This document shows, piece after piece, positions 9,751 through 27,157 of a DNA stretch of 64,000 nt. A program made the position numbers and the translations under genes. Every line of letters begins with the position of its first letter. Position 1 is the stretch's first letter. Where the stretch lies: positions 1,922,001 through 1,986,000 of the forward strand of contig JABTUL010000001.1 of NCBI GenBank assembly GCA_015075425.1, given 5' to 3'. A model generated the notes under the pieces. It ran no database searches. It had not been told where the DNA came from and worked only from the letters and a program-made list of their open reading frames with translations. Source of the stretch: Spirochaetales bacterium (GTDB lineage: Bacteria; Spirochaetota; Leptospiria; Leptospirales; Leptonemataceae).

Positions 9751-11025
9751 ATGAAAGCTTTTGTCCCTGCCCGCTTCAACCTGCCCCTGGCCTGGGCGCT
9801 CGACTTCCTCTCCCCTGCCCTTTTCAAGGCCATGCACAATATTGAAACTTTAGAAATTTCAAAGGAAGACCGCGCCCTGCTTCGCAGCCTGCGCAAAGAT
9901 CGGCTCCTCTTTTTTACCAATCACCCGTCAACCGCCGAGCCTCCCATCGTGTACCAACTGGGCAATATGATGGGCGCCCGTTTTAAATACATGGCCTCGC
10001 GCCAGGTTTTTGACTGGTGGGGCGGCCTTGTTGGGCGGGTGATCTCGAACATGGGTGCTTTCTCCGTGATCGCTGGCATTGCCGATCGCGAATCCCTCAA
10101 GGCAGCTCGCGAAACACTGGCGGCAAAAGAAGGCAAACTTGTCCTTTTTCCGGAAGGGGAACCAACCAGCGGCGAAAACGATTCTCTCATGCCTTTTCAG
10201 GCAGGAGCCGCACAACTTTCTTTCTGGGCTTTAGAAGATGCGCGCAAGATCGACCCATCGGCAGACATCACCGTCCTTTCCGGCTTCATTAAGTACATTG
10301 TGACCGCAGATAAGGAAACCATCATCAAAACCCTGACCGATTCCATCTCTCGATTGGAGAAGAGCTGTCATGTGGATCCGGGCAACCGCAACTTACTGCG
10401 TCGTTATCTGCACTTCGGTAAGGTTATGCTGGAAGAAGCAGAGCGTACCTACAAAATTCCCATGGCTTCAGAGAAGGATTTCGATTATCGTGTGGGCCGC
10501 CTTCGCCATGTCATTCTGGACAGTCTGGCCGAGCGCATTCAGATGACCAACTATGATCGATCAGCCGATGCCATCAGCAAACTGCGCCAGATCTGGGCTG
10601 TTCTGGAAATGATCGAAATCGGCTACCCGGACGTACGTTTGCCCAGGCTCACACCGGCAGAACTGGAATGGGCGCAGAATGAAATTATAAAAGCTTTTGA
10701 CTTTATTGTGATTCGTAAGGATTACCTGCTGGAATATCCTTCAGCCGAACGCTTCTTCGAGTGGCTCAGTCGCTTTGAGTTCTATGCTTCCGGTAAAACA
10801 GCGCGGGCCAAAGGCGGCGAGCCCACGCCTCTGCCGCGCAAGGCACACATTTTTCTCAACCCGCCCTTCCAGCTCAGTGAGTACTGGAGTGAAGATAAGC
10901 GCGAACGAAAACTCAACCTGGAAAAACTCTTAAAACGCCTTCGAGACGACCTTGAGGAGAAACTGAAAGCCTCACTGGCTTTAAGCCAGCCGCTCTTCAC
11001 GCCAGGGGATATGGGTGGAATCTAA
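9751..11025 (+). CDS. PlsC-like glycerolipid acyltransferase
   Basis: The N-terminal 200 residues resemble the 1-acyl-glycerol-3-phosphate acyltransferase superfamily: NHPSTAEPP near residue 57 corresponds to motif I and LVLFPEGEPTSGEND near residue 133 to motif III (FPEGTRS). Motif I is HX4E rather than the usual HX4D. The remaining 220 residues are helical, charged and unlike standard PlsC; the protein is 424 residues against about 240 for PlsC. It has a weak hydrophobic segment near the N-terminus and may be peripheral on the membrane. Its end overlaps the MNT gene start by about ten bases. Substrate is unknown. Confidence 0.75.
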   Translation: MKAFVPARFNLPLAWALDFLSPALFKAMHNIETLEISKEDRALLRSLRKDRLLFFTNHPSTAEPPIVYQLGNMMGARFKYMASRQVFDWWGGLVGRVISNMGAFSVIAGIADRESLKAARETLAAKEGKLVLFPEGEPTSGENDSLMPFQAGAAQLSFWALEDARKIDPSADITVLSGFIKYIVTADKETIIKTLTDSISRLEKSCHVDPGNRNLLRRYLHFGKVMLEEAERTYKIPMASEKDFDYRVGRLRHVILDSLAERIQMTNYDRSADAISKLRQIWAVLEMIEIGYPDVRLPRLTPAELEWAQNEIIKAFDFIVIRKDYLLEYPSAERFFEWLSRFEFYASGKTARAKGGEPTPLPRKAHIFLNPPFQLSEYWSEDKRERKLNLEKLLKRLRDDLEEKLKASLALSQPLFTPGDMGGI

Positions 11026-11533
11026 ACCCGTAGATCCACAAATCGTTACTTTTTGCTTTGAGTCCATCGTCCGCGCCCTACAGAAAGCCGCTGTAGATTT
11101 TTACCAGGAACGCCTGGTCAGCCTGGCCATTTTTGGTTCCGTGGCCCGGCGGGCTATGCGCCCGGATTCTGACCTGGATCTGCTCCTGGTGGCCAGTCCG
11201 CTACCGGACGGTCGCATAGCCCGGAGGCGCGAATTCGATCAAGTGGAAGAACGCCTGATCCAGGAATTCGACCGGGCCCGACAGGCGGGAATCTGCACCA
11301 GAATATCTGTGATCCTCAAGACTCCGGCCGAAGTGGAACATGGCAGTCTCATCTTTCTGGACATGATTGAAGAGGCAAAAATCCTTATCGACCAGGGCAG
11401 TTTTTTTCAAAATTATCTGAACCGACTTTCAGAGAAACTCAAGGAACTGGGATCTGTTAAAGTAATGAAAGAGAATGGTTACTACTGGATTCTTAAGCCC
11501 GGCAAGAAACCGGAGGAAAATATCCTTCTTTAG
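11015..11533 (+). CDS. MNT-type nucleotidyltransferase
   Basis: A 172-residue minimal nucleotidyltransferase domain protein, starting at GTG 11015. The Pol-beta-like signature GSVARRAMRPDSDLDLLLV (GSx10DxD) is at residues 42-60. The third acidic residue expected a strand later is not obvious (RISVILKT). The last 50 residues end in a YYWILKPG segment seen in some archaeal-type members. MNT proteins paired with HEPN proteins can form toxin-antitoxin modules in which MNT AMPylates the HEPN toxin. The HEPN gene follows after seven bases. Confidence 0.82.
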   Translation: MESKPVDPQIVTFCFESIVRALQKAAVDFYQERLVSLAIFGSVARRAMRPDSDLDLLLVASPLPDGRIARRREFDQVEERLIQEFDRARQAGICTRISVILKTPAEVEHGSLIFLDMIEEAKILIDQGSFFQNYLNRLSEKLKELGSVKVMKENGYYWILKPGKKPEENILL

Positions 11534-11540
11534 GCGACGT

Positions 11541-11942
11541 ATGACGACTCATGATCTGGGCAAGAGCTATCTTTTAAAGGCCCGTCAAAGAAGACGAGTG
11601 CTTGAAGTTCTCATGGAAGAAGAAGCCTATTCTGACGTTGTGCGCGAAGCTCAGGAATTGGTCGAGCTTGCGCTCAAGGGCATATTGAGACTGGCAGGTC
11701 TCGAACCACCGCACTGGCATGACGTCGGCCCCATCTTGCTGGAAAACATGGCTCTACTGCCTGCGGCCGTGCAGGCAGAGGCCGCAGAACTTGCCCGGAT
11801 ATCCCGCTGGCTCAGAGAAGAGCGCGAACTATCGATGTACGGCGATGAGGATACGATCCCTTCCGAGCATTACAAAAAGGAAGACGCCGAGCGGGCCATC
11901 CAGGATGCCCTTCAAGTTCTCCGCATTGCTACAGAGAGTTAG
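11541..11942 (+). CDS. HEPN-domain protein
   Basis: This 133-residue all-helical protein matches the PF05168 HEPN pattern: REAQELVELALKGILRLAGLEPPHWHDVGPILL (residues 33-65) is the conserved core with the Glu-Leu-Ala-Lys-Gly helix and the P-x-x-H-D turn. The C-terminal YGDED...YKKEDAERAIQDAL is also family-like. The RX4-6H RNase motif of toxic HEPN proteins such as HepT is not evident; where it would sit I read RELSMYG. The ATG at 11541 is the first start after the MNT stop. It is likely the obligate partner of the upstream MNT gene, either as an atypical toxin-antitoxin pair or as a substrate-binding subunit. Confidence 0.8.
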   Translation: MTTHDLGKSYLLKARQRRRVLEVLMEEEAYSDVVREAQELVELALKGILRLAGLEPPHWHDVGPILLENMALLPAAVQAEAAELARISRWLREERELSMYGDEDTIPSEHYKKEDAERAIQDALQVLRIATES

Positions 11943-11983: not shown

Positions 11984-14872
11984 TCAGGGACAGTTCACAT
12001 TGGCCGCGCCCATCGTATGGGCACCCATGCACCATTCAACATTCGTATTCGTGTCCCTGATACCACCACCAAGGGGTGTATAGTCGCTGTCCCGCTGCAC
12101 GGACTGCCCGGCCCCCAAATCGATATCACCGGCGGCTTCACCTTGAATAGTAGCATCATTGGAGCCGTCCACCGGCAGAACGGAAAACCCGGTCCATAGA
12201 TAGGTGGCTGTTGCCCCAAAAACGGTGGCAAAATTGGTCATCCACGCCGCTGTTGCATCCCCATCCCTGTTGCTGATGGCCACGCTGTCAACCGTCACGG
12301 AACTGGCATTTTGCAACTGTATGAAGTTGTCAGTACAAGTCAGACTTGCTGTGGCGACATAGACATCCCAGGCCGTAGCAGAACTATCTGTTCCCGCGCT
12401 TTCATTGATCGTGGAGGCGGCATCATCTTCCTGGGCGAACCCCCCCTGGTTGCCGCTATCAAAATGGAGGACCACGTAATCTCCGGCCGTTACGGCAAGA
12501 TTAGCGCCGAACGTATAACGCAATGTGCCGGTACCATTTTCCAGGATTCTAAAGCCGGCCAGACTCCCCGAGCCGGTAACATAAAGTTCAATAAAATCCT
12601 CCGGTCCAGCGGATCCAACGCACATCACCTCGTTGATCAGGGCAGTGGCTGCGGCAATGGACCCGGTGAAACTGGCGTTGGCCGTGGTCATGGCGATACC
12701 ACCGTTTGCCGATGTCACATTTTGCACCCACACATTGTAGGTTACCAGAGACTGTGCTGCTGTTGTTACGGTAACCGTACTTCCAGCAAGCGTTGGCGTT
12801 CCGGAAAGACTCAAAACACCGCCAGAGGCCTGGCAGGCAGCAAAGCTCACCACAGCAGATGTCGTGACGCAGTAATTACCCAGTGTGGTGGAACTGGTTG
12901 CATGCGGAGGATCGGAAAAAGTAACCTGAACGCTGGTGTTGCTCGCGCTTGTTGCTCCGGTAACGTTGAAGACGCAGTTGTTCGTACCGCCCTGAGAAAC
13001 AGACTTACTGGAAAAATCATTGGCATTCACATCTGAATCGTTGCCGTCCGGACAGCGCGAATTTTGCCCGTTGCTGGCTCCACCCGGCGCATAGGAAGCA
13101 TTTTCCCGGTAGGTTGCATCAGACGATGTGCCAATTGCGACAAAATCGATGACTTGCGAGTCCGCCGGTGACGTTGGTGCAGTCGAGCTTGAGAGAATGG
13201 CGACGCAATAACCGTCATCAATATTGCCCATATTGGTCTGATTGGCACTGCCACCATAACCTGTTGCATCATTGGATATGGTAAAGTAACTACCCGCATT
13301 AATCGTTCCGGTGAGAGCAACTATGGCTGTAACACCATTACCCAGATTACAGCCGCTGTCGCGCATAATGTAAGCGCCGGCAGCACCCAGATCAATGGCA
13401 GATGTGCCAGAATTGTAAATTTCCACGAAATCCTGTGTTGTTGTGCCACCGGTATCCCAGACCACTTCATTAATCTTGAGCGGACTCAGATCGACAACCG
13501 TGCAGTTATTGGCGGCATCAATGGACGTGGGCCGTGAAAGAAAATCGGCACCATTGTCATTTGTATCCGTACCATTCGGGCAACGTGACAGTGTTTTACT
13601 TCCTGGAGCGACTGAACCATTTTCCCGATCCACGGCGTTGCCGAAGGCCACAAAGTCCACCAGATGGCTGTTGTTTGTAGCGGTCAGATTGGTACTGGAA
13701 CTTGTCAGGGCCACGCAATCATCGGCGTTGAGAGTAAAAGTAAAGGTTTGATCCGCGCTGCCCGCATGGATGCCGGTATCGCGGGCCAGAAGGTAGTAGC
13801 CGCCTGCCGGTATGCTTCCGGTCAGAGCCAGCTTATCCGGGCTCCCGGAGCTCAAATTGCAGTCCGAATCACGCTGGATGTGCGCCGTTGCCGCTGCAAG
13901 ATCAATGGCAAAGGATCCGGGATTGTAGAGTTCAATAAAGTCGTCGGCCGCGGCTGAGGTATCCCAGCCGATCTCGTTGATAACTATGCCGGTGAGATCA
14001 GGCACAATGCTGAAGCTAACGTTATTCGTGGTCATTGCCAGGCCAAGGCTTGACGAGGTTACATTCTGCACCCAGAGATAGTATGTCCCGGATCCTATCG
14101 CCGGTGTGGTCAAAGTGACAGTGCTGCCGCCCACACTGGCCCCGGTAACAGCACCAACGTAACCTCCGGATCCGGTACATCCGCCAAAGCTTCCGGCACC
14201 GGAAGTGCTGGTAATGCAGTAGTTTCCTGGCGTTCCGCCGCTGCCAGCAGCCGGTGCTTCAGAAAAAGTCACGGCAGTACTTGTGCTTCCTGATGAACTG
14301 GCGGAATTCACATTAAAGGGATTCAGAGTGAAACTGGTAGAACTGTTGGCCAGAGCCTGACCCGTTGACGAGGTAATGTTCTGCACCCAGATGTAGTAGG
14401 TCCCGGAACTCACGCCAGAAGCCAGAGTGAGGGTAACCGTGCTTCCGGTAAGAGAAGGGGCTGCAGCACTGAGCAGATTGGGAGCACACGCCGCAAAGGT
14501 TGCTACAGAGTTCGTAGTAACACAATAATTTGCCAGAACAACGGCCGCAGCTCCGTCGGGCGCGGCGGAAAAACTCACGTTCAGAGTGGTGGAGGCCGTG
14601 GCTGCACCTGTGGTAATGAAGAAGGAACTACCCGAAGAACCCGTGCTTCCCGTATCAGTCCCGGAAGACTGAAACGCTCCGGCCTCGGGGGAGAGGCTGG
14701 CTATGAAGAGATTTCCCAGGTTGGTTTTCCAGTAATCGTAAGACCCCTGGTCGAGGAAATTGCAGCCCGCGCCCATTAGTCCGGCAAGAAAAATGAGCAT
14801 CGTCCGCCCTGATGCGCGCGCCGGATTTCGCCTGGAAAGGCCCGGTGAATGTTTTTTTAGAAACCGGTTCAT
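11984..14872 (-). CDS. Large lipoprotein with Ig-like and lamin-tail domains
   Basis: A 962-residue surface-type protein. From ATG 14872 there is a long basic n-region, a hydrophobic core and lipobox LMGAGC, so the mature protein should be lipidated. The body alternates beta-sandwich units containing a repeated NYCVTT...FAAC motif (three copies, near residues 110, 215 and 660) with lamin-tail (LTD) domains marked by INEIGWDT...DFIELYN, INEVVWDT...DFVEIYN and INEVMCVG...DFIELYV. Each full LTD unit ends in a Cys-containing SRCPxGxDxxxNxxDF segment. The start is one base after the stop of the PLD/LTD gene. Composition is very Thr/Ser/Ala/Gly rich, typical of secreted beta proteins. Role is probably adhesion or matrix interaction (inference). 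Confidence 0.8.
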   Translation of the reverse strand: MNRFLKKHSPGLSRRNPARASGRTMLIFLAGLMGAGCNFLDQGSYDYWKTNLGNLFIASLSPEAGAFQSSGTDTGSTGSSGSSFFITTGAATASTTLNVSFSAAPDGAAAVVLANYCVTTNSVATFAACAPNLLSAAAPSLTGSTVTLTLASGVSSGTYYIWVQNITSSTGQALANSSTSFTLNPFNVNSASSSGSTSTAVTFSEAPAAGSGGTPGNYCITSTSGAGSFGGCTGSGGYVGAVTGASVGGSTVTLTTPAIGSGTYYLWVQNVTSSSLGLAMTTNNVSFSIVPDLTGIVINEIGWDTSAAADDFIELYNPGSFAIDLAAATAHIQRDSDCNLSSGSPDKLALTGSIPAGGYYLLARDTGIHAGSADQTFTFTLNADDCVALTSSSTNLTATNNSHLVDFVAFGNAVDRENGSVAPGSKTLSRCPNGTDTNDNGADFLSRPTSIDAANNCTVVDLSPLKINEVVWDTGGTTTQDFVEIYNSGTSAIDLGAAGAYIMRDSGCNLGNGVTAIVALTGTINAGSYFTISNDATGYGGSANQTNMGNIDDGYCVAILSSSTAPTSPADSQVIDFVAIGTSSDATYRENASYAPGGASNGQNSRCPDGNDSDVNANDFSSKSVSQGGTNNCVFNVTGATSASNTSVQVTFSDPPHATSSTTLGNYCVTTSAVVSFAACQASGGVLSLSGTPTLAGSTVTVTTAAQSLVTYNVWVQNVTSANGGIAMTTANASFTGSIAAATALINEVMCVGSAGPEDFIELYVTGSGSLAGFRILENGTGTLRYTFGANLAVTAGDYVVLHFDSGNQGGFAQEDDAASTINESAGTDSSATAWDVYVATASLTCTDNFIQLQNASSVTVDSVAISNRDGDATAAWMTNFATVFGATATYLWTGFSVLPVDGSNDATIQGEAAGDIDLGAGQSVQRDSDYTPLGGGIRDTNTNVEWCMGAHTMGAANVNCP

Positions 14873-14873
14873 T

Positions 14874-17729
14874 TTACTGCTGGAATTCGAAATCCTCAAA
14901 ATTATTTCCCGAGGCACTGCCACTCTTAACGCGGGTAAGCCGGACGGAATTGCCGCTGGTTGTTTTCAGATGCGTACAGAGCCGCTGTACGTTGTAATCG
15001 TTGACCTGAAAGACCGGTTGCAGGGGAAAGCGATAGATTGCCTGGTTCTGATTGTACATGGTGTTGAAACCACCAACCATCAAAGTTTCCGGCACACTGC
15101 CGTCCTGATTGCTGTAGCACATCATATCCATCGGGTCACGGCTCAGATCATAGCTGATAAAAACCACGCCATCCGTGGACACAATGTTGAGCGGACTGAA
15201 AACCGACCAGGTGTCATTGGCCACAAGACCGGTTTGCGCCAGACCGTCAGAAGGGTTGGTTGTAATATCAAAAGTATTGGCCGAGCCAATCTGCGCATCC
15301 TCGGGCCTGATATTGGCAAGGCTGCAGGGGATATCGCAGGACTGGCCTAAATTTAACTGGATGTACTGACCGGCGTTAATGGGTACGTCATTCATGCGGT
15401 AGAGGAGGGTCGGAGTTACCGCGAAGGTATCATAGATATAGATACCCAGATTGTTCACGGTGCCGCCGGTAAGAGCCCGTAGAACAATAATGTCTTTGGA
15501 GCCGGAGCGGCCGGGATAAACCCTTTCAATCTCCAGGCTTGCCGGAGTTGTACTGCCGGTAAAGCTGATGGCCCCACCTTCTGCTACCTGACCGGTCATG
15601 TCAAGAGCCGTGCTGGCAACGGAAAAGGTGTAACGCGTTCCAGCCGTCTGCGCGGCCGTCGTCACTTTGATACTTGAAGGATCATTGCTATCCAGCTCCA
15701 CAGTACATGCAGGGCCGCAAAGAGTCGCCTGGGTAACACCCGGTGCGCTCTGCATGGCCCAGCGCATCTGAATCACCGCAGAGGTGGAACCGGTGGAATA
15801 AGCACGGACCGGCACGTTTGTATAACCATTCACGCCACTACGAGCGTTCGATGCTGAGGTCAGTGTCACAAAGTTACCGGAATAGTAGGGCGTAGCAATC
15901 GTGCCATTGCGAAAGTCTGTTCCGAGTTGTCCTGTCCCGGCAGCACTCGAACCAAACAATCCATTGCCATTTGAGGTATACCAGCTACCGGCATACTTTC
16001 CAGGCAAAGCCTTGCCTGTAGCCGGATGAAAAAAGCGCTCCATGGAGTGCAGTCTTTTGTAAAAAGTATCTACTTTGCCTGCAAAGGGGGCCTCGCCAAT
16101 GCCTGCTTCATCAATCAGTGTCATAGCAGGATCATAAAGTCTGATATGAAGCTGCCCGCTGGTAAGAGTAAAATTCTTGGTACCGCTCACTTTATTGTCC
16201 GTATTGTCCAGGGCACCATTCTGGGCGTTGATAATGCCAAAACGGCGGGCAGGGATTACGATTCGCCCGGCAAAGCGGTGCCTTGATGCGACGCTCGGCT
16301 CATACCAGTTGTAGCGGTCGGGAATGGGATAAAATTTCCGCTCGCTGGTTTCCCAGGACATGGCCCAGTGGCTGATATCAATATCACGATCGGTTGTATT
16401 GTAAAGCTCAATCCAATCATCGTCTTTATTTTCAAAAGACTCTCCGCTTTCCCAGGATCCCGCCCACATGACTTCAGAAATGACAACGTCTCCAGGGCTG
16501 GCCCGGTCCCCTGAGGTAAAGCGCAGTCGCTTACCATCTCCGCAACAAAAGGCTTTGGAGACGTTCCAGATTCCTTCCCATTGCTTGAGTATCTCCTGGG
16601 CAACAAATGGATCATGGATGATCAGCATATTTTCATCATTGTTTTCCACGGCATTGGTGGAAAAATTAAACGATCCTGTAGCCACAATGGAGCCATCAAT
16701 GATCATCGTCTTGGTGTGCAGCTTGCCCCCGTGGGCTTTGATACCCGGGACGTTAGTATTTTCATTGCCATCGCCACGAACATAAGCCGCACCGTCGCCA
16801 TAGATATGGCGAAAGGAACTGAAAAATCGGGGCGCTTCTTCGGATACACCATTGATAAATGTGTCATCATGCACACCGCGCACCACAACACCGCGGCGGG
16901 CCGCTCGTGTTTTGGCCACATCCAGCTCATCATGCGTATGAGCAAAGATCATGTAGTGAACGGTATTTTTTGCCCCATCCACCAGCTGGATCAAACGATC
17001 CATGGCCCGCTGACCATCGTAAGGAGAGAAGTAGACTTCAAAGCGTGAGAGATTGACGCGATGGTTGTAGTCCGTAGTCAGCGGGACCTTCTTGGCACCG
17101 TATTTTCCGTAGAACATCTGATCAAATTCTGCAGAAAAAACCCGGGCGATGGATGGACTTTCCAGCATGACAAAGTTCTCATTATTGCGCAAGAAGCCTG
17201 ATGACGTGATATTCCCTGTCCCCATAAAAACATATCTATCGTCAATGATAAAGAACTTATTGTGATGAATGGCCGTGGTGTTGCCCATAGAAAAAGGGAT
17301 ATCTGTGCGTAAAATAGTCCGGTAGCCGTCCGTGACCACTTCATCCACATCACCGACCATGCGCACATCAAGGCCACGCGCCTTGGCATTGATTATGGCA
17401 TTCATGATGGGCGTATGCCCCAGATTGTACACGGCCACAATGACCTTTTTCTCTGCATTGTCGATCATCTTGATCAGCTCAACATCGATCTTCTTATCCA
17501 CCCCGTTGTCCCGGGTGGTTCCCGGATCCGTGTAAAAAGTGCGTAGCAGGTGGGGGCCACGCAAAGCGTAGCCCGGATCCGCAAAGAAGTTGTCTACATC
17601 ATCATAGGAACAGGAAAGGGCTGCGCTTAAAGCAAGGATCAGTAAACTTTTGACAGGCACCTGCATTCCCCCGCGTAGAGTAACAGAGCAACGGGGAACT
17701 TTCCCACCTTTTTTTGCAGAAAAATTCAT
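14874..17729 (-). CDS. Lipoprotein with twin PLD (HKD) domains and lamin-tail domain
   Basis: The 951-residue protein has a signal sequence ending in lipobox ALSC (Cys40), then two phospholipase D/nuclease domains, each with an intact HKD motif: H156-x-K158-x4-D163 and H338-x-K340-x4-D345, the latter followed by GSFNFS. This pair resembles the Nuc/endonuclease and cardiolipin-synthase branches of the PLD family. From about residue 410 a lamin-tail domain follows (VVISEVMWAGS...DDWIELYN) and then beta-rich repeats. ATG 17729 shares a base with the barrel gene's stop (TAATG); ATG 17666 would give a shorter signal peptide. It should be an envelope-anchored phosphodiesterase acting on nucleic acid or phospholipid. 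Confidence 0.87.
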   Translation of the reverse strand: MNFSAKKGGKVPRCSVTLRGGMQVPVKSLLILALSAALSCSYDDVDNFFADPGYALRGPHLLRTFYTDPGTTRDNGVDKKIDVELIKMIDNAEKKVIVAVYNLGHTPIMNAIINAKARGLDVRMVGDVDEVVTDGYRTILRTDIPFSMGNTTAIHHNKFFIIDDRYVFMGTGNITSSGFLRNNENFVMLESPSIARVFSAEFDQMFYGKYGAKKVPLTTDYNHRVNLSRFEVYFSPYDGQRAMDRLIQLVDGAKNTVHYMIFAHTHDELDVAKTRAARRGVVVRGVHDDTFINGVSEEAPRFFSSFRHIYGDGAAYVRGDGNENTNVPGIKAHGGKLHTKTMIIDGSIVATGSFNFSTNAVENNDENMLIIHDPFVAQEILKQWEGIWNVSKAFCCGDGKRLRFTSGDRASPGDVVISEVMWAGSWESGESFENKDDDWIELYNTTDRDIDISHWAMSWETSERKFYPIPDRYNWYEPSVASRHRFAGRIVIPARRFGIINAQNGALDNTDNKVSGTKNFTLTSGQLHIRLYDPAMTLIDEAGIGEAPFAGKVDTFYKRLHSMERFFHPATGKALPGKYAGSWYTSNGNGLFGSSAAGTGQLGTDFRNGTIATPYYSGNFVTLTSASNARSGVNGYTNVPVRAYSTGSTSAVIQMRWAMQSAPGVTQATLCGPACTVELDSNDPSSIKVTTAAQTAGTRYTFSVASTALDMTGQVAEGGAISFTGSTTPASLEIERVYPGRSGSKDIIVLRALTGGTVNNLGIYIYDTFAVTPTLLYRMNDVPINAGQYIQLNLGQSCDIPCSLANIRPEDAQIGSANTFDITTNPSDGLAQTGLVANDTWSVFSPLNIVSTDGVVFISYDLSRDPMDMMCYSNQDGSVPETLMVGGFNTMYNQNQAIYRFPLQPVFQVNDYNVQRLCTHLKTTSGNSVRLTRVKSGSASGNNFEDFEFQQ

Positions 17730-19522
17730 TAAAAAACGACCTTCGTGCCGGCCTGAAAGCCAACAAAGGGTGTACTGCCCTCGGGAGCTCCTTCCACGTC
17801 ACCTTTCGTGGTGTAGTAGCGCCCGGGCTTGAAAATTCCGGCGGTGGCCCAGGCCTTCCAGGTGGGCTGGATACGCCATTCGACGGTAAGATTGAATTCT
17901 TCGCCCACCTTCTGGCCCATCCGCCGCTGGGCTTCGATGGCCGTGCGCTGCTCCGGGTATTTATCCAGAATCTTGACGATCCTGTAGTTCTGCTCGAGAA
18001 GCGAGCTTGTCCCCTTGTAGAAAGCAGCCTCATTGGTATCCTGAAATTCCCACCAGGCAAGGATCAAAAAAACCTTTTCTGTGATGCCGCCGGTGAGACT
18101 CATGCTCTTGACTTCTGTGCCCGTGCGACGACGGCGCTCATACGGCCAGTCATCAATGCCGTCATCATCCACATAGGCGCTGGGGGTTCCACCATAATGC
18201 ATGGCCGTGAGAATTCCACCCATGGGGTTGCCCTTAAAACTCACAAAACCGTGTGAGCGCTGGGTGCCATCGTAATCGTAGCGGCCCCCTTCTGCCAGAA
18301 AGTAGGCGGGAACAAACTCCAGTCTTTTGTCAAAGAAACTGAATTTCACCTCCAGGGCCCAGGACCGGCCATTGGTATCCGTGTCTTTATTGACAAAGGC
18401 CGCTTCCGGATTGATGAGCAAAATATTACGATCAATATCCGTGACCAGAAGGTCGGGACGCTTGCGGTCAATACCGTAACTCTCGGCGTAGGTTCCCGAT
18501 ACAAAAAGCCAGTTGTCCACACCAGCATTCATTCGTAGCCCGCGCATAAAGGTTACATCGTTATCCGCATAGTTGCCGTTGGCTCCTTCATTGGTCCGGT
18601 CCGATCCACCCTCGTTGACGGCGCCAAATCGCGCTGCATAGTAAAAGATTCGCCCATCCACATGGGTGCCACCTACCATGGAATCGCCATAGATGGGATA
18701 GCGATAGGTGAAACCGGAGCGCAGGGTATTGACATCACCGCCAAAGCCATCGACCTTTTCGCTGTCATAGCTCAAATACTGCACAAAATAGACATCCTGG
18801 GTGGAGGAGCCGCTGCTGTACACATCCAGTAGAAGCAGATCCAGAAAACCAAAACGTCCGTGCCAGTTGAGAACAATCGCATCAAGGATATCACTCATCA
18901 AGTAGTCACGGTCCAGCTGGCCGCCGATTTTGTGTTCCTGGCGACCAACCACGAGATCCGCCCGGCGCTGCGGAGTGGGTGCAGTGAGCAAATGCATGTT
19001 CAAGTAGAAGAGGCCAAAGTTGACCGTATTGGCTCCTGTATAGGTGCTGCGGCTGTCGTTGTTGGCGTCGCGGCCCCCAAGCTGATCATGACCCCAGAAA
19101 CCCGCCTTCCATAAATCGAGCCTGACGTCCAGGCGGGGCGAAACAGGAATGAAGGTAGCCAGTTCCGCGCCAGATACCATGAAATAAAGCCGATCATCGG
19201 TCAGCTCAATGGACGTTTCACTGGACTCATCCAGGGAGCGGAGATCGCTGTTGTTGGCATAATTGAAGTTCATCCAGACAGTCATCTTCCACTGGATGCG
19301 CTTGAGCAGCGCCGATTTTTCTGCCTGATCCAGATTAAAATAATTGTCCTGATACTGAAAGTCCATGGCACCGGGACTTACAACAGGAGCCGCTCCAGGC
19401 GCGGTGGGAATGGCATTCTGGGCCCACAGACCGCTCGTTAGCATAAGAGCCCACAACAGGCCAGAAGAAAATCTCCGCATTGCCCTCACCAGAAATCCTA
19501 ATCGCTTTTTATTTGTTTTCAT
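17729..19522 (-). CDS. Outer-membrane beta-barrel protein (alginate-export/porin-like)
   Basis: The 597-residue protein begins with a basic n-region and signal peptide (cleavage likely after LWA, residue 35). The mature chain alternates aromatic and hydrophilic residues in many amphipathic strands (RLDVRLDLWKAGFWG, RGLRMNAGVDNWLFVSGTYAESYG, WALEVKFSFFDKRLEFVPAYF) and ends in Phe (GTKVVF), the usual outer-membrane insertion signal. Polar stretches with DANND and YVDDDGIDDW may be metal-binding loops. Length and strand pattern resemble alginate-export or large porin-like barrels, but I cannot assign a substrate. It lies between two LTD lipoprotein genes with one-base overlaps on both sides, so it may export or anchor them. 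Confidence 0.75.
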   Translation of the reverse strand: MKTNKKRLGFLVRAMRRFSSGLLWALMLTSGLWAQNAIPTAPGAAPVVSPGAMDFQYQDNYFNLDQAEKSALLKRIQWKMTVWMNFNYANNSDLRSLDESSETSIELTDDRLYFMVSGAELATFIPVSPRLDVRLDLWKAGFWGHDQLGGRDANNDSRSTYTGANTVNFGLFYLNMHLLTAPTPQRRADLVVGRQEHKIGGQLDRDYLMSDILDAIVLNWHGRFGFLDLLLLDVYSSGSSTQDVYFVQYLSYDSEKVDGFGGDVNTLRSGFTYRYPIYGDSMVGGTHVDGRIFYYAARFGAVNEGGSDRTNEGANGNYADNDVTFMRGLRMNAGVDNWLFVSGTYAESYGIDRKRPDLLVTDIDRNILLINPEAAFVNKDTDTNGRSWALEVKFSFFDKRLEFVPAYFLAEGGRYDYDGTQRSHGFVSFKGNPMGGILTAMHYGGTPSAYVDDDGIDDWPYERRRRTGTEVKSMSLTGGITEKVFLILAWWEFQDTNEAAFYKGTSSLLEQNYRIVKILDKYPEQRTAIEAQRRMGQKVGEEFNLTVEWRIQPTWKAWATAGIFKPGRYYTTKGDVEGAPEGSTPFVGFQAGTKVVF

Positions 19523-21357
19523 CAGCGGCTGTCCGCCCGCACATCATCGAAACAGAAATTATCATCATTATTAGGCGATCCGTTGTCGTCCTGGACACGC
19601 AGCGTGATCCGCAGGCCCGTGGCTGGGCCAGGCGGAAGAGTCCCGACTATAACTCTGTTGTAGCTGCCCTGGGTCAGTGTCACGGATCCTCCGGCCTCCT
19701 GACTGTAAGCCGTAGTGCAAGCACCACCCGTATACCAGTCCAGGTCCAGGCGCGCATAGAGGTTATTGCCTCCATTGGCTGTTGATGCCTGCACATAGCC
19801 CTCGGCAAAAACCGGCCTCCCGGCGGTAAATCCGGTAATGCAGGTTGCGGAACTCATGGTTCGGCCGCTAAAACTGGATGTCAGGGAGTCAATGCTGTAG
19901 CCCTGAGTTCCCGTACGGGCTGACGTGCCGGCCGGGCAGGTATTGGATTCCGGCAGTCCAGCGGCTTCAACAACGTTGAAAGTAGACTGCGCTGCCTCAA
20001 AGGAAGTGCTGAAAATCTGGCCTGCCCCGCTGCCGGTGCAGGTATTGGCGCTACCTGGCGTTGCCGTCTGATACAGAAAATCCGTCCCGTTCTCATTAGT
20101 GTCCTGGCCATTGGCGCAACGGGAAATGGAGGTGCGAAAGCCCAGATAGGGCGCGTTCGCGCTACCTTCACGCAGATTGGTGCGGGCAGCATCTTCCAGG
20201 CCGACAAAATCAATCACCGAAGTACTGTTCACGCTACCCAGGGATTTGTTGCCAATTCCGAGAGCCACACAGTCACTTTCCCCAAGGGTAAAGCTCCTTT
20301 CCGTGCGCGGAACAGCAGCCGTCATAAAGCCATCCGTAATCAAAGGATGACTGGCCGTGCCATCGGAACGGGTGATCACATGGTAGCCACCGGCGGGAAT
20401 GGTGATGCCGCTAAGGCTCAGGCGATCCGTGGCATCGGACAGGGTATCGCAGGCTCCGTCCGTGTAGCGATGGATGTAGGCCCCGTCCATGCTGATTTCG
20501 AGGGCTGTGGGATTGTAGAGCTCGATGAAATCGCTGTCTGTGTTGCCATTGATGGCATTGCCTACTTCATTGATGACAATCCCCCGACGCGGGTCCACTT
20601 TGGCCGGGAAGCCATTGTGGTTATGCCATTCTGCCAGATGCGGAATGATATAGTGGGAACCGGTGGGATCTATTGTTGACTGACTGAAAAAACGCGCCTC
20701 GATGGGAATGCGCGGACTGAGCAGGTCCGGGGCCACGGGATGGTAGTACTGTTGCTCGCCAAAGTTAAAAGTCTTTAGAATAGGCCGCACTCCTTGAAAT
20801 CCTGCATCCGCTCCATAGATGGAGTAGTACACGCCCAGGTAAAGATCATACTGGGCCCGGTCACTGACCGCATTCACCGGACTCGAAAAGTGGGTATACT
20901 CTCCCTGGTAGTTGGTGGGGACTCCTGTCCGGTCCGCAACGTAAACCTGCATATACCAGTGCTCTGCATTTTTATTGAACCACTGCGGCGGATGTTGCAT
21001 GATGTAAAACGTATCCGCAAAACCCAGGTCATTGGAAAAGCCCACGCCCACCAGACAGGCCTTACTTTCCACAGCGGAACAGTCGCTTGACCCACTGCAA
21101 CAATGGGCATACACATCCGCTCCGCGTTCAAAGACCCAAACAGAAATAAAACTGGTCTCATTAAAGGAAGGATTGTGTTTAATCTGTAAATTGTTAAACT
21201 GCACATGGATGTTACCCGTATCATCGAAATGCACATAGCCCTGATCACGGGCTAATGGATCCGTCAGGCTGGCAAAATGCTTCTCCGCAAAGTCATCCAG
21301 ATTGTGACAGCTCAGTGTCAGCAGAGAAAGAAACAGGAAAACACGCTTCAGGGACAT
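19522..21357 (-). CDS. Lipoprotein with lamin-tail domain and C-terminal jelly-roll
   Basis: From ATG 21357 the 611-residue protein starts MSLKRVFLFLSLLTLSC, a classic short signal peptide with lipidated Cys17. Residues 20-260 form an unknown domain with aromatic beta segments and a CC pair (AHCCSGSSDCS). A lamin-tail domain follows at about 270-420 (IVINEVGN...DFIELYN) and ends in SRCANGQDTNENGTDF. The last 160 residues start FSTSFEAAQ and resemble a carbohydrate-binding-module-like jelly-roll (NFCFDDVRADS near the end). The start lies inside the last codons of the upstream PLD-like gene and its stop overlaps the barrel start (TGATG). It is probably a surface binding protein. Confidence 0.78.
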   Translation of the reverse strand: MSLKRVFLFLSLLTLSCHNLDDFAEKHFASLTDPLARDQGYVHFDDTGNIHVQFNNLQIKHNPSFNETSFISVWVFERGADVYAHCCSGSSDCSAVESKACLVGVGFSNDLGFADTFYIMQHPPQWFNKNAEHWYMQVYVADRTGVPTNYQGEYTHFSSPVNAVSDRAQYDLYLGVYYSIYGADAGFQGVRPILKTFNFGEQQYYHPVAPDLLSPRIPIEARFFSQSTIDPTGSHYIIPHLAEWHNHNGFPAKVDPRRGIVINEVGNAINGNTDSDFIELYNPTALEISMDGAYIHRYTDGACDTLSDATDRLSLSGITIPAGGYHVITRSDGTASHPLITDGFMTAAVPRTERSFTLGESDCVALGIGNKSLGSVNSTSVIDFVGLEDAARTNLREGSANAPYLGFRTSISRCANGQDTNENGTDFLYQTATPGSANTCTGSGAGQIFSTSFEAAQSTFNVVEAAGLPESNTCPAGTSARTGTQGYSIDSLTSSFSGRTMSSATCITGFTAGRPVFAEGYVQASTANGGNNLYARLDLDWYTGGACTTAYSQEAGGSVTLTQGSYNRVIVGTLPPGPATGLRITLRVQDDNGSPNNDDNFCFDDVRADSR

Positions 21358-23666
21358 CCGTTTGCCGCCCGGGGTGAAACTGCCAGATTGATAAAGTCCG
21401 TCCCATTCATGTCCGTGTCCTGCCCGTTGGGACAACGCGAGATACCCGGTCCGCCATTGGGAGCCTGCGAGCTGTTCTCCAGAGTTGTTCCGGACATGCT
21501 GACCCAGTCGATGATATGACTGTCCGTTGCTGCCGTTCCCACGATGCCATTTGTTGTCAGGAAGACGCAGTACGAACTGGTAATGCTACCGGCCGTGGCC
21601 AGATCGAAAGTAGATAAGGCAAAAGTATTGTCTCCGGCGACCAGGAAATATCCACCGGCAGGAATACTGCCGCTAAGCTTCGCCGTACGCGTAATGCCGC
21701 CGGTACTGATGCTACAGCCGGAATCGAGCTGCAATTCCATCCCCGTTAGATCAATTGTCTGGCCGGATTTGTTGAACAATTCCACAAAGTCCGTTCCGGT
21801 GGCGCCACTGAAACCTATTTCATTGATGACCAGAGCGCCGCGGTAGGGATTGCTTGAGGTCGGTGGAACGCCAGGACTGGAGTTGGCATAGCCTGGAGTC
21901 CCGTACACTCCATCGAGAAAAGCAATGCCAATGTTTTGATTCTGCTGGTAACTGGTATGCGTGTTGGGGTGCCAGTTGTTCAAATCCGTTCCGTCAGCAC
22001 TCAGGCCCGTGCGCTCCATGGTGCGCATCCAGCCACTGAGTTTATCATTGCGACCCATTTGATCCGGACGGCTGGCAAAAGCAGTCCCGGCCTGCCCGAT
22101 GGTATCCACGACCTGCCCACCCGGGTCCGCAAGCTGGCATTGATCCGTCAAATTGTCATCGATGCGATTGCTGCCCCCCAGATCCACAACCAGATGTGCG
22201 AGGGTGACCACTTTATTATCCGATGAAGTAGCGTCGTCCTTGACAACGAGGTACTGACCCGGACCGATCATGGTGCGGGCTGGAAAGGTGAATTTGGACA
22301 CCATGACCGGTGAAGCCGTGGTGCGACAGCTGAATACCCAGCCGGAGAGATTAACGGCACTTCCTGAATTGTTAAAAAATTCAATGTATTCATAAGCACC
22401 GGAATCCTTGTCCGTGTCGTAGGAGCCAGCGTAGTTGAGTTCAGAAACCACCACTTCCCGTCCACCGGCAGCGGGCATGGTATCGCCGGTCACGGAAGGT
22501 ACGCCACCTGCCCTGCCTTCCAGAGCCCGGTAAAAACCGAGCAACTGGTCGAGCATTTGCTCCGCTTCAAAAACCAGAGTGATACCGTCATGAGAAGAGT
22601 CGGCACGCTTGCCAAAAGGATAGGAAGACACAAAAGCCATGCGCGTGGAATGACCGTAATCGCGGATGATCATGTTCAATCCCATGCCTGCCCAGTCACC
22701 CGGCATCACCGTGCGGGTAACTCCGCGATCCGCCACGTAAGTAACATTGTTGTACTCGGTCTGACTGGTTGAACAACTACCCGTACTGACTCCCGGATTC
22801 ATAAAAGCTGTCCAGCTGGCCACCACGCGACGATCGGCTGCCTTTGAATTCGCCACTTCATAGCCCAGGTCCAGGGCTTCCTGAGCACAGTTGCTATCGA
22901 TCTCATTAGACAGCCATTCCGTAGTATAGATATAGACACTCTTTTCCGCCTGACCTGTACGAACCGTTGTAAATCCCTCAAAGGGATTATCCGACGGCGC
23001 CATGTACACACCAACATCTACGTTGCCTACAAGCCAGTGGTTGCGGCGGTTGAGTCGTTGTTTGGCCGAGCCAAAGGCACCGTGGGTGATGAGATCCAGT
23101 TCTGTAGCAAATTTGGTCGCAAGTCCATAGATATCTGTTTGAAAGTACATACCAAAAGCAGATTTGCTGTAGAGATCCTGAACGGTTGGCGCTGCCGTGG
23201 ATACCCAGACCCGCTGGCCGTCCGCAATACAGGTATTCAAATACACCTGACCCGCACCGGAGTTGCCCAGCCAGAGTTTGCGTCCACCAGGAGCCGATGT
23301 GCTGGTGTGGATGTACTCCTTCAAGGCGCGGTAGCCAATTCCATCCAGATTGTCTTCATCAAGACCCACGCGCACATCCACACCACGCAGGTGAGCGTAG
23401 AATAAACCATCCAGAACCCTGGGCAGAGAAACATCATAGAAAACACAGTAAAGAGTTTCCCTTGCCGGGAACATGGTATTATCAATGAGCAGCCCCTCTA
23501 TGGCCGAAGCGTTGTCCCCTACCACGGATGTTCGGGTGGTCATATAGGGGTTGTTGGCATTGAGGAGTTGGGCCAGATAATCCGTGGGATCCTCATTCTG
23601 CCAGTAACAGGCAGGGAGTGCGCCCAGGGCCGCAGTCATCATTACTAATCTGGCTTTAGTGAACAC
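21348..23666 (-). CDS. Lipoprotein with degenerate PLD fold and lamin-tail domains
   Basis: A paralogue in layout of the PLD/LTD lipoprotein at 14874-17729, but with catalytic residues lost. In the segment aligned with the first HKD motif, VYLNTCIADG has Tyr and Asn at the His and Lys positions while Asp remains; in the second, GLNMIIRDYG has Gly and Asn. Two lamin-tail domains follow (VVVSELNYAGS...YEYIEFFN and LVINEIGFSG...DFVELFN), the second ending SRCPNGQDTDMNGTDF. The proposed GTG start (23666) gives a 20-residue signal peptide with lipobox LPAC; an ATG at 23777 would lie inside the phosphatase gene. Probably a binding pseudoenzyme. Confidence 0.75.
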   Translation of the reverse strand: MFTKARLVMMTAALGALPACYWQNEDPTDYLAQLLNANNPYMTTRTSVVGDNASAIEGLLIDNTMFPARETLYCVFYDVSLPRVLDGLFYAHLRGVDVRVGLDEDNLDGIGYRALKEYIHTSTSAPGGRKLWLGNSGAGQVYLNTCIADGQRVWVSTAAPTVQDLYSKSAFGMYFQTDIYGLATKFATELDLITHGAFGSAKQRLNRRNHWLVGNVDVGVYMAPSDNPFEGFTTVRTGQAEKSVYIYTTEWLSNEIDSNCAQEALDLGYEVANSKAADRRVVASWTAFMNPGVSTGSCSTSQTEYNNVTYVADRGVTRTVMPGDWAGMGLNMIIRDYGHSTRMAFVSSYPFGKRADSSHDGITLVFEAEQMLDQLLGFYRALEGRAGGVPSVTGDTMPAAGGREVVVSELNYAGSYDTDKDSGAYEYIEFFNNSGSAVNLSGWVFSCRTTASPVMVSKFTFPARTMIGPGQYLVVKDDATSSDNKVVTLAHLVVDLGGSNRIDDNLTDQCQLADPGGQVVDTIGQAGTAFASRPDQMGRNDKLSGWMRTMERTGLSADGTDLNNWHPNTHTSYQQNQNIGIAFLDGVYGTPGYANSSPGVPPTSSNPYRGALVINEIGFSGATGTDFVELFNKSGQTIDLTGMELQLDSGCSISTGGITRTAKLSGSIPAGGYFLVAGDNTFALSTFDLATAGSITSSYCVFLTTNGIVGTAATDSHIIDWVSMSGTTLENSSQAPNGGPGISRCPNGQDTDMNGTDFINLAVSPRAANGCP

Positions 23667-23718: not shown

Positions 23719-25311
23719 TCAGGGCAGATCAACAATGACCACCGTAAAATCATCCGTGAATGGTTGCCCTTCTCCAAAGGCCCGCAGTTCCTCTTCCATA
23801 AGGGTCAGAGTATCTTCCGGTGTCTCCTGACGGGTGCGGGTCAAAAAATGCTGAAAGCGGGCCATCCCGTACTCTTCCCGTGCTCGATTTTTGTGCTCAA
23901 TGCAGCAATCCGTGTAAACCACAAGGCGCATATTCGGCCCGTAGTGAGCCCTCCTCATGCCAAATTCACCGGAAAGAGCGGATCCAATGATGGACCCGGT
24001 GGGATCGAGTAAAGTGATCTGGCCTGTGGCATTCACCAGAGCAGCGGGCACATGCGCCCCACTGGCATAAGTGAGTTCACGTTCTGCTGTATCGATATTG
24101 ATGAAAATGCCGGTCAGATAATGGTAATCGGTCACTTTTTCTATAGTCCGGGACAGTCGGGCCAGGACATTTCCGGGCATGGTATTATGCAAATTGATCC
24201 GGGAAATGGACATCTTGGTCATGGCCCCGATCAAAGCCGATGGCATACCGTGTCCGGAAATATCGGCCATGAAAAGAAACACATGGCGATCATCAAGCCG
24301 GCCCAGATCATAGAGGTCGCCGGAAACGGCCGAGCAGGGTAAAAAGCGCGTGGCATAGGTCAGACCGGGCATGCGGTTTTTTTCCGGAAGCATAGCGCGC
24401 TGCACATCAGCAGCCATGGCCAGCTCATATTCAATCTGGGATTGTTTTTCGCGGATCTGCTGGGTTCTTTCTTCCACCATGATTTCCAGGCGTTCGGCGT
24501 ACTCCCGCAATTCTTCGTTGGCCTTACGTAAGTCCTCCTGCAAATCCTCTATTTTTTTAAATATGTCCAGGGTGCCGCGATTGAGATTTAAGTGACTGCG
24601 TTTTTCAAACCAGCGGATGTAGAGGGCAAAAGGCCCGGCGGCACCAAGAACAATGAGGGACTTAAAGACGACGTGTGAGAATAAAGTTTCCAGAAAAGGC
24701 AGAGTCTTTACGTCTTCGCGCAGAAATCCTTCCAGTTGGGTCAGAGAAATAAAAAGCAGAGAGTCCACAAACATGGTGACAAGCAGCGCCAGAGCCACCT
24801 GAACACCCAGGGGCAAGCGCCTGAAAGTATTGACCAGAAACTGGAAAAAAGCGACAGCAAAAAAAAGATCGATTACAGCAGCAAGAATGGAAACAAGGAG
24901 CCGAAAGTAGCGCGGCTCGAAAAGAACGGTGGCAGCATCAAGAGCCGCCGGAGAGAGGAGCGGACCGGCCACATAGAAAAGAAAAACCTGACTCAGAAGC
25001 AGCATAAGCTGGATCAGTATAGAGACACGGATCAGGTTGCGGCTTTCTTTGATTCCTTCGCAGATGTACACCAGAAGGATCGCCACAAAAATTAAAGTAA
25101 AGATGGCTGAAGAATAACGAAAGGTGACCGGAAATCCCAGAGCATCGCTGGAAATGCGGTAGTTGAGGCCTCCGGTGAGAAAGCTCAGGAACCATAGAAA
25201 AGAAACGTAGGCCACATAGGGGCCGTGGCCTGTCCGGTGCCGCAGAGCATGGAAACCAAATATCCCAGAGCAGAGCAGAAGCAAGAAAGCGGCAAAATAA
25301 AAAAGATCCAT
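23719..25311 (-). CDS. Membrane SpoIIE/RsbU-type PP2C phosphatase
   Basis: A 530-residue regulator. Residues 1-235 contain about seven hydrophobic helices forming a membrane sensor I do not recognise; about 245-300 is a coiled coil (LQEDLRKANEELREYAERL); the rest is a PP2C-like SpoIIE domain with SGDLYDL, ADISGHGMPSALIGA and TDDFTVVIVDL as metal-binding motifs. Enzymes of this class dephosphorylate STAS anti-anti-sigma factors in partner-switching pathways. A STAS protein is encoded at 32769 and a second such phosphatase at 28726. Its ATG overlaps the adenosine deaminase stop by one base. It may transduce an envelope signal. Confidence 0.88.
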   Translation of the reverse strand: MDLFYFAAFLLLLCSGIFGFHALRHRTGHGPYVAYVSFLWFLSFLTGGLNYRISSDALGFPVTFRYSSAIFTLIFVAILLVYICEGIKESRNLIRVSILIQLMLLLSQVFLFYVAGPLLSPAALDAATVLFEPRYFRLLVSILAAVIDLFFAVAFFQFLVNTFRRLPLGVQVALALLVTMFVDSLLFISLTQLEGFLREDVKTLPFLETLFSHVVFKSLIVLGAAGPFALYIRWFEKRSHLNLNRGTLDIFKKIEDLQEDLRKANEELREYAERLEIMVEERTQQIREKQSQIEYELAMAADVQRAMLPEKNRMPGLTYATRFLPCSAVSGDLYDLGRLDDRHVFLFMADISGHGMPSALIGAMTKMSISRINLHNTMPGNVLARLSRTIEKVTDYHYLTGIFINIDTAERELTYASGAHVPAALVNATGQITLLDPTGSIIGSALSGEFGMRRAHYGPNMRLVVYTDCCIEHKNRAREEYGMARFQHFLTRTRQETPEDTLTLMEEELRAFGEGQPFTDDFTVVIVDLP

Positions 25312-26315
25312 CAGAGGTTACTCAGCAGTTGCGCTTCCAGCACGGTCCGATCGGCTTCATTGACAAAAGCTGCGCGCGCTGCATTTCTGGCTATTTGCTG
25401 CACGTCCGCCAGACTTAAACCATAGGTTCGGCGTGCCAACTCCCATTCCGAAGCCAGAGTTATTCCTGATATGGCCGGATCATCGGTATTCAGAGTCACG
25501 CAAAGGCCTGCCGCAAGGTATTTGGCAAAAGGATGCTCTTCTAAGGAAGAAACTGTGCCCGTTTGCAGATTGGAAGTCAGACAGATCTCCAGAGCAATGC
25601 CCTTTTCCCGAACCACCTTTACCAGATCAGGATCCTCCTGGATGCGTACACCATGTCCGATTCGCCGCGCCCCCAGAAGCTCAATGGCCTTGCGCGCAGA
25701 ATCGGCCGGAGCTGCTTCGGCCGCGTGAATGGTCACGGGTAACTTCCCGCCAAGATTGCCAAATGCGGCGGCATAAAGTGAAGCATCATAGCGCGATTCA
25801 TCACCGGCCAGATCTATTCCGCAGATGCTTCCGGGACGTTCCTCATTTAAGTCCAGGGCCAGCCGGATCGTCTTTTCTGCAAGATCCGGCGGGAAACCCC
25901 GGTAACAGCACAAAATGAGACCGGTGCGCAACTGCTGCGCGCTGGAAAGACCGTACAGGACAGCCTCCACCGCGGCGCGCAGTTGCGCTGTATCGGCTGG
26001 ATCAGCAACATTCAAAATGGGAGCAAAACGCACCTCCGCATAGATGAGCCCCTGGTTTTCCAGGTCTTCCACCAGCTCCCGGGAAATACGCTCCAGTGCA
26101 TTTGTTGTTTTCAGTAATGGATAAAAAATCTCAAATGTTTTCAGGAAGTCAGTTAAAGTGTGGCAGTCGGCAGAAACACGAACAAACCGGTCCAGTTCCG
26201 GCACGGTACCTGCCGGCAGAGCGTAGCCCGCTTCCCGGGCCAGTTCAAGAATCGTGGCCGTCTGGACGGCACCGTCCAGATGCAGGTGAAGATCAATGGC
26301 CGGAAATGATTTCAC
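25311..26315 (-). CDS. add: Adenosine deaminase family protein
   Basis: The enzyme deaminates adenosine to inosine in purine salvage. The zinc amidohydrolase landmarks are present: HLHLDGA near the N-terminus, HAAEA for the third zinc ligand region with catalytic Glu nearby, IGHGVRI, and TLNTDDPAISG with the paired aspartates. The 334-residue length is normal. I prefer GTG 26315 (KSFPAIDLHLHLDGA) because it overlaps the upstream stop as GTGA; an ATG six codons earlier is the alternative. Family members acting on adenine or on 6-aminodeoxyfutalosine share these motifs, so substrate is probable but not certain. Confidence 0.85.
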   Translation of the reverse strand: MKSFPAIDLHLHLDGAVQTATILELAREAGYALPAGTVPELDRFVRVSADCHTLTDFLKTFEIFYPLLKTTNALERISRELVEDLENQGLIYAEVRFAPILNVADPADTAQLRAAVEAVLYGLSSAQQLRTGLILCCYRGFPPDLAEKTIRLALDLNEERPGSICGIDLAGDESRYDASLYAAAFGNLGGKLPVTIHAAEAAPADSARKAIELLGARRIGHGVRIQEDPDLVKVVREKGIALEICLTSNLQTGTVSSLEEHPFAKYLAAGLCVTLNTDDPAISGITLASEWELARRTYGLSLADVQQIARNAARAAFVNEADRTVLEAQLLSNL

Positions 26316-27157
26316 CGAGCGGGCACGGGGCAATCTTCGCTGTCGTAAGTGGCCCCTTCGCGGAAGGGGCGCTGGTCCGGCAGGCGCCAGCGCCCCTTTT
26401 CAAAAGAGATGGCCTTCTCCTGTCTGTAGGCGTTGGGCGAACCGGGCGTGCGGATGTAGTCAAAGATATCAATGCGAACCTGTGGAAAGAGCCCACCCAG
26501 AAGTTCCACACTCCCCGTTACGTAACGATCGGTATCTTCATGGTATTCGATGCGCTCAAAATGCACTCCCTGTTTGCCGGCAAGATTCACAAGCGCGGCA
26601 ATGATAAACGGTTTTTTGAGCTGTCCTGGAAGCGCTCTGTCAGTGCTTAATTTTTTCCAGATGTGATTTTGCACATCCTCCGTGTTGATAGCAATGACCG
26701 CTACAGGCTGCGCTCCGCGAGACTGGAGGTAGTTTTGCAGATTCACGACCGTATCACTCTGACCGCGTGCGGTCACAATAACAGCCGTGTCGGTGAGCTG
26801 CACTCGCCTGAGTAAATCGAAGGCCGCGGGAATGGGCGCTGTCGTTGCCACCTCTGTAGCATTGAAAACGGAATAGTCGGCCTCCTCTCCCTCTGCCAGG
26901 TCCATACACTTGGAGTCCATCTGACGCAAAGTGCCCTCTCTGGTTTTCACCGGGATGGTGGTGACTGTGTCTCCCAGCGTATGATCAAAATCAAAGACAT
27001 AAAGTGTTTTCCCCTGCGGAAGAAAATCCTGACCCTTGAGCACCTCTGTCAGTCCTTTCTGTAAAACCGCCTCCTGCGAGCGATACAGCTCCAGAGCCGC
27101 ATTCTTCTGGCAATACAGCGAAGTAAAAAAAAGCAGGACCGGGAGGGAATAACGCAT
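26312..27157 (-). CDS. Putative HAD-fold phosphatase, exported or lipid-anchored
   Basis: The 281-residue product has a short signal sequence ending SLYC, a plausible spirochete lipobox with Cys16. The HAD nucleophile motif appears as VFDFDHTLGDT (residues 53-63, DxDxT) and a second-motif Thr in VIVTARGQSD. The HAD motif III Lys and motif IV acids are less clear (HEDTD is a candidate for motif IV). An N-terminal secretion signal on such a fold recalls class B acid phosphatases, but the sequence is not a close match. It is the first gene of the eight-gene minus-strand run that leads into the LTD cluster. Confidence 0.7.
   Translation of the reverse strand: MRYSLPVLLFFTSLYCQKNAALELYRSQEAVLQKGLTEVLKGQDFLPQGKTLYVFDFDHTLGDTVTTIPVKTREGTLRQMDSKCMDLAEGEEADYSVFNATEVATTAPIPAAFDLLRRVQLTDTAVIVTARGQSDTVVNLQNYLQSRGAQPVAVIAINTEDVQNHIWKKLSTDRALPGQLKKPFIIAALVNLAGKQGVHFERIEYHEDTDRYVTGSVELLGGLFPQVRIDIFDYIRTPGSPNAYRQEKAISFEKGRWRLPDQRPFREGATYDSEDCPVPAR

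Follow-up and report, generated by a model that had tools for sequence, protein, structure and literature searches.

The window analysed here, a stretch of 64,000 nucleotides, carries five genes at positions 11984–23666, all on the minus strand and transcribed in the order E-D-C-B-A. Gene E (21348–23666) starts at GTG and encodes a lipoprotein (lipobox LPAC) with a twin-PLD domain that is predicted to be dead and two lamin-tail domains (LTDs; PF00932). Gene D (19522–21357), which has an ATG start, encodes a lipoprotein (lipobox TLSC) in which an N-terminal, cysteine-containing conserved domain without a known fold is followed by a single LTD and a variable C terminus. Gene C (17729–19522) encodes a predicted outer-membrane β-barrel with a signal peptide and 18 predicted strands, resembling AlgE. 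The lipoprotein encoded by gene B (14874–17729; lipobox ALSC) matches PF13091 twice and PF00614 twice, and has an LTD (16098–16502, residues 410–544) and a C-terminal region. Gene A (11984–14872) encodes an accessory lipoprotein (lipobox GAGC) with three LTDs. E and D overlap by 10 bases, and D and C, like C and B, by 1 base; B and A are separated by a 1-base gap, provided that A starts at the ATG at 14872. An earlier note on this DNA had the genes joined by overlaps of 1–10 bases, which is right for the first three junctions but not for B/A. It also described four lipoproteins with lamin-tail domains, and here we agree: lipobox-like cysteines and signal peptides are present in A, B, D, and E, which score 88.4, 48.7, 35.6, and 97.9 bits against PF00932 (Pfam gathering cut-off 34.3), in three, one, one, and two stretches, respectively. 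These four are not consecutive, as had been stated, because the barrel gene separates D from B; the barrel does lie mid-cluster, where the earlier note placed it.

Cysteines C86, C87, C93, and C101 are invariant in the alignment of D. Sequence comparison found no relative of D with a solved structure, and a fold model, which was poor (mean pLDDT 46.9), was left uninterpreted. A weak match of D to the ExeM model (15.4 bits against a cut-off of 1300) runs across the LTD. The ends of the LTDs are rich in Asp, Asn, and Gly (DTNENGTDF), as are the outer loops of the barrel, and could be calcium sites.

In B, two PLDc_2 stretches lie within a single chain (Pfam, E = 2.3e-41), with two copies of the HxK(x)4D(x)6GSxN motif at 17211–17264 (HNKFFIID...GTGN) and 16665–16718 (HTKTMIID...GSFN), both on the minus strand. 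The twin HKD domains had been called active-looking, and both HxKx4D sets at the catalytic sites are indeed kept in 14 of 14 B-type homologues, the first copy of the motif ending in GTGN in 13 and in GSxN in 1. The B protein scores 88.8 bits against the NucT model, whose curated equivalog cut-off is 297, and is therefore NucT-like, not NucT; all 14 members match NucT models (NCBIfam) below cut-off. A search of the PDB with the B profile found mitoPLD/Zucchini, Nuc, and NucT, and a single phospholipase, weakly. Matches to cardiolipin synthase models are weak (32 bits), and the surroundings of the HKD motifs (TGSFN..NA..NNDEN) are Nuc-like. Among PLD proteins, then, B appears closest to nucleases, the activity that we predict for it. 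NucT is a membrane-associated protein with a preference for single strands, and it has been linked to transformation and to the salvage of purines (PMC5714352). Proteins of the Nuc/NucT/Zucchini type share with B the HxKx4D-x6-GSxN signature and are its best sequence matches, but they are single-HKD homodimers (PMC5714352), whereas B, besides its LTD, has two HKD halves per chain and a dead paralogue encoded by a separate gene, and scores far under the NucT cut-offs. A second PLD plus LTD lipoprotein is encoded elsewhere in the same genome (L069, 9811–12627; C1:280948); it is 34% identical to B and has no barrel nearby.

The inactivated copy that the earlier note recognised is E. No PLD family is matched by E in Pfam, but hhalign aligns it to the B family over 506 columns covering the PLD and LTD regions (probability 99.9, E = 1.4e-37), with both HKD sites replaced. 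In the alignment and motif listing, GNSGAGQVYLNTCIADGQRV (23208–23267, minus strand) takes the place of HxKx4D at the degenerate first site. The motif is missing from 7 of 7 E orthologues and from all 23 of 23 E-type proteins, and in the seven orthologues the catalytic positions have largely conserved substitutes, GNxGxGQVYxNxCVAD and SSHDG. Read from these alignments, E is a true but catalytically dead paralogue of B; because the replacement residues are conserved, we infer that it has long been maintained as a pseudoenzyme and did not decay recently. Active (B-type) and dead (E-type) PLD proteins are kept as separate types, and the E-type partners are linked by profile (A8/A5, 98.1%; A6/A5, 99.5% over 484 columns; A7/A6, 98.5%). 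One Turneriella-like genome (G032) also encodes, away from the module, an E-type dead PLD protein of 1758 residues with several LTDs (L143, 3713–8989).

The barrel protein matches no Pfam or NCBIfam family, including no TonB or plug domain, and sequence comparison gave no match to an unrelated nutrient porin; such a match is what the earlier note had named as speaking against its reading. An AlphaFold model built on 13 sequences contains 18 strands, with a pLDDT of mostly 70–92 in the strands and of 62.9 on average, and the best 16 Foldseek matches in the PDB are all AlgE (top E = 3.0e-10, TM-score 0.42/0.55). The window's own C protein has no match to PF13372 (Alginate_exp); a single homologue, L060, does match, at 22.7 bits, below the cut-off of 25.2 (E = 4.9e-5). 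C thus models as an 18-strand AlgE-like barrel. The predicted fold is shared with AlgE and EpsX (PMC9601211), but identity to AlgE is only about 10%, the TM-score is modest, and C has conserved outer loops of its own. AlgE-like barrels with a known function are exporters, and 18-strand barrels of this kind also serve OPX pathways (PMC9601211). The putative outer loops of C are more conserved than its strands (mean pairwise identity 0.425 versus 0.362, p = 0.026), four of them strongly so. Porins do not usually show such conservation, which could be explained by partners that are themselves conserved. The conserved loops are rich in Asp, Asn, and Gly (GRDANND, DRTNEGANGNYADND, DDDGIDD) and are possible calcium sites. 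We considered an anion-selective pore from the interior charge and rejected it: the net charge is −13 to +1, so the interior is not net positive and a polyanion channel is unsupported by charge.

To what extent is this set of genes conserved as a unit? We searched 61 related genomes, 30 of them in the window's order, counting matches with E < 1e-50 as close homologues. Within the order, close homologues of B, C, D, and E occur in one identical set of 11 genomes (G000, G003, G004, G008, G012, G015, G018, G019, G021, G023, and G028), and none is found in the other 19; in G008 the D gene is truncated by a contig end, and its C-terminal part remains, adjoining the barrel gene. The chance of two identical sets would be 1.8e-8 if genomes were independent, a figure that is overstated because they are related. 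The order E-D-C-B is preserved in G003, G004, G012, G015, and G018, and in G023 D-C-B lie together with E elsewhere. The families co-occur in order, and a lack of joint conservation in relatives, the other finding that the earlier note had named against its reading, did not arise. For gene A, relatives match partial stretches only, mostly of the LTDs, which ruled it out as a core member. Within this sample, E, D, C, and B are a conserved four-gene unit and A is lineage-specific, and the five-gene unit of the earlier note is accordingly reduced to four.

In searches with profiles of these families, rearranged forms of the module, with barrel, active PLD, dead PLD, and LTD genes, occur across Spirochaetota. 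Turneriella-like genomes have the order C-D'-E'-B' (L058, L059, L062, L085–L089, and L145–L148), and this form is present in a Turneriella parva MAG (L086) and in G032, where Endonuclease I lies nearby. Other arrangements are B-C-E''-D'' (G054), D'-B-...-C-E'' (family f36; L118, L120, L131), C-E''-D'-B (G100), D'-B-C (G137), and B-(dead PLD/LTD)-C (G068, G010, G104, and G172). Of 393 genomes sampled across the phylum, 43 have the barrel, and these span 28 of 168 genera; by a hand count it adjoins PLD and/or LTD genes in about 32 of the 43, the others being isolated, at contig ends, or marginal matches. Against the module reading, Turneriella-type genomes also have relatives of the barrel and B that stand alone, outside the cluster. 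The common phyletic pattern and the repeated linkage rule out chance neighbours. Mobile-element cargo was also rejected: B has no plasmid match, C has no relative on viral contigs, and composition is even across the window. We dropped the idea that the 'Caldithrix' contig L089 is misbinned, as its gene content equals that of G035:C368 and the genome tree puts G035 in the Turneriella-like family; given this placement, the organism name 'Caldithrix sp.' of L089 and L145 is likely wrong. Taken together, the evidence supports the barrel with its LTD/PLD lipoproteins as a real, conserved, and apparently undescribed system.

In the window, an adenosine deaminase gene (25311–26333, minus strand; TIGR01430, 273.5 bits against a cut-off of 216.55) lies two genes upstream of E, as context and not as part of the core. 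The gene immediately upstream of E, in the same orientation, encodes a phosphatase of the SpoIIE type that has a VUPS membrane sensor domain (23719–25311); it was rejected as a member, as no such gene was found next to those modules for which we read the upstream genes. Upstream of the deaminase gene is a secreted protein that looks like a HAD phosphatase (26312–27157; FDFDHTLGDT), with no Pfam or NCBIfam match. On the other side, and convergent with gene A, a nucleotidyltransferase-domain gene and then an overlapping HEPN gene (11015–11942; PF01909, PF05168) are probably a HEPN/MNT pair. A promoter scan did no better than on shuffles.

Elsewhere, too, genes of nucleotide catabolism adjoin the module. 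In family f36 (L118), an LTD lipoprotein, a PLD-LTD protein, two 5'-nucleotidases, the barrel, and a dead PLD-LTD protein are followed by Endonuclease I, a NupC-type nucleoside transporter, and uridine kinase, a series that is repeated in L120; this transporter has an N-terminal bacterial Ig/OmpL47-type extension (L118, 15708–18062; L120, 3687–5987). A 5'-nucleotidase gene directly precedes the barrel in G100, and Endonuclease I lies ∼2–4 kb beyond the PLD gene in the Turneriella-like genomes G031, G032, G033, G035, G039, and G043. In G003, E is preceded by DeoC (TIGR00126, above cut-off) and by two aldehyde dehydrogenases; this DeoC is also a neighbour in G018, and in G015 the neighbours are two aldehyde dehydrogenases and an aldolase of the DeoC family. 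These three genomes are a single genus. In G004, purine-nucleoside phosphorylase (PNP) precedes E and uracil phosphoribosyltransferase (UPRT) follows B. A contig of G031 (L142, 1752–8393) carries in a row a TonB-dependent receptor, a 5'-nucleotidase-C lipoprotein, and a separate PLD-LTD lipoprotein, possibly a TonB-based version of the same function. No recognisable nucleotide-catabolism genes were found in the flanks of G012 and G023, and, within the flanks that were scanned, G010, G054, G068, G104, G137, and G172 likewise have no such neighbours. Such neighbours are thus present in roughly half of the lineages; the genes vary by lineage, and the pathway is common to them. Across the order, a NupC-type transporter is present in 6 of 11 genomes with the module and in 13 of 19 without it, which shows no association, and the association with a 5'-nucleotidase is only weak (3 of 11 versus 1 of 19); Endonuclease I is missing in most carriers.

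In Sus-like polysaccharide utilisation, an outer-membrane pore works with several surface lipoproteins, one an enzyme and the others binders, and catabolic genes adjoin. The present module likewise combines a pore, several surface-type lipoproteins, and catabolic neighbours, but it has neither SusC, the TonB barrel, nor SusD, to which A, B, D, and E have no Pfam match, and its substrate class, by inference, is nucleic acid. We think it probable that E-D-C-B is an outer-membrane system of nucleic-acid acquisition, Sus-like in plan and without a TonB receptor. In this model, D, E, and the LTDs generally would keep DNA or RNA from outside the cell bound at its surface, and B would cut this nucleic acid as a twin-HKD phosphodiesterase of the Nuc/NucT/Zucchini type, which its dead paralogue E would assist by binding or presentation and not by catalysis. 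The products would then traverse the outer membrane inward via the dedicated AlgE-like barrel C and be dephosphorylated, salvaged, or catabolised by the enzymes often encoded next door. More tentatively, the lipoproteins and barrel may form a complex that acts as a dedicated importer without a TonB receptor, in which the LTD lipoproteins gate or dock onto the AlgE-type barrel and the active PLD and its obligatory dead partner cut and feed oligonucleotides or nucleotides through; we regard this more specific version as possible and somewhat doubtful.

Several other functions could, in principle, be served by the same proteins. C could be an AlgE/EpsX-type translocon that exports eDNA or a polymer that is anionic or contains phosphodiesters, with B, D, and E trimming or anchoring it at the surface to build a matrix. 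The structural neighbours of C, the sub-threshold PF13372 match of its one homologue, and the use of such barrels in OPX pathways (PMC9601211) all point this way, and LTD proteins such as ExeM have been discussed for biofilms (PMC6085458). Yet, unlike for AlgE/EpsX, no export or polymer-synthesis genes lie near C: no glycosyltransferase, synthase, OPX, or alginate/EPS synthesis gene was recognised in the Pfam-scanned flanks of the modules, the repeated neighbours are catabolic, and in one genome a TonB uptake receptor sits beside a PLD-LTD gene. Export thus seems unlikely. It is very unlikely, in our judgment, that the substrate is phospholipid or cardiolipin, with B a phospholipase D that the barrel and LTDs position at its target membrane. 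The PLD superfamily fold of B and its weak cardiolipin synthase matches are compatible with such a role, but the nuclease models score clearly higher, the HKD surroundings are Nuc-like, and the recognised flanks hold nucleases and nucleotidases and no lipid-metabolism genes. We favor nucleic acid over phospholipid because of these nuclease-type HKD signatures and the nucleotide-catabolism neighbours; of the two substrates, DNA or phospholipid, that the earlier note allowed for, the former is retained, widened to nucleic acid, and the latter is the less likely.

A further alternative keeps the nuclease and changes its purpose: the module could degrade surface DNA nets, matrix, or phage or competitor DNA, with the barrel a structural anchor and not a channel. 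Surface nucleases with LTDs have been proposed to act in defence against NETs and in biofilm control (PMC6085458), and outer loops somewhat more conserved than the strands would suit a docking platform. Against this, the adjoining DeoC, PNP, UPRT, and uridine kinase genes, which act in intracellular salvage and deoxyribose metabolism, suggest that the products are used, and those carriers that are known by name, MAGs of uncultured Leptospirales/Spirochaetia and of Turneriella, are not known host-associated pathogens. We therefore consider a defensive or biofilm role improbable.

Nucleic-acid acquisition as proposed here has partial precedents. Feeding on eDNA with an LTD-nuclease protein has been described for the 'DNA-degradation loci' of Candidatus Izemoplasmatales, which likewise colocalise extracellular nucleases, phosphohydrolases, transporters, and the LTD-nuclease protein (PMC8289736). 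Izemoplasma is wall-less and has no outer membrane, and the loci as described there include no barrel, active/dead PLD pair, or set of LTD lipoproteins (PMC8289736). LTD nucleases are also known in Shewanella, where ExeM has an LTD fused to a secreted nuclease; there, however, the nuclease domain is of the EEP type, and the protein is not a lipoprotein with a barrel partner (PMC6085458). An EEP nuclease domain has no Pfam match in any of our five proteins. In the open-licence papers searched, we found no description of a module of barrel, active and dead PLD, and LTD proteins, nor of eDNA feeding in these spirochaete lineages.

The function of bacterial LTDs is not agreed upon (PMC6085458). 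The module connects these domains to nucleotide catabolism, together with a dedicated barrel and a pair of PLD proteins, one active and one dead, in a single gene set that recurs between genomes. To our knowledge, how the breakdown products of nucleic acids pass the outer membrane of diderm bacteria is poorly worked out. The C-D'-E'-B' form in Turneriella parva offers a test system in a non-pathogen, and the module would probably let these spirochaetes feed on DNA from outside the cell.
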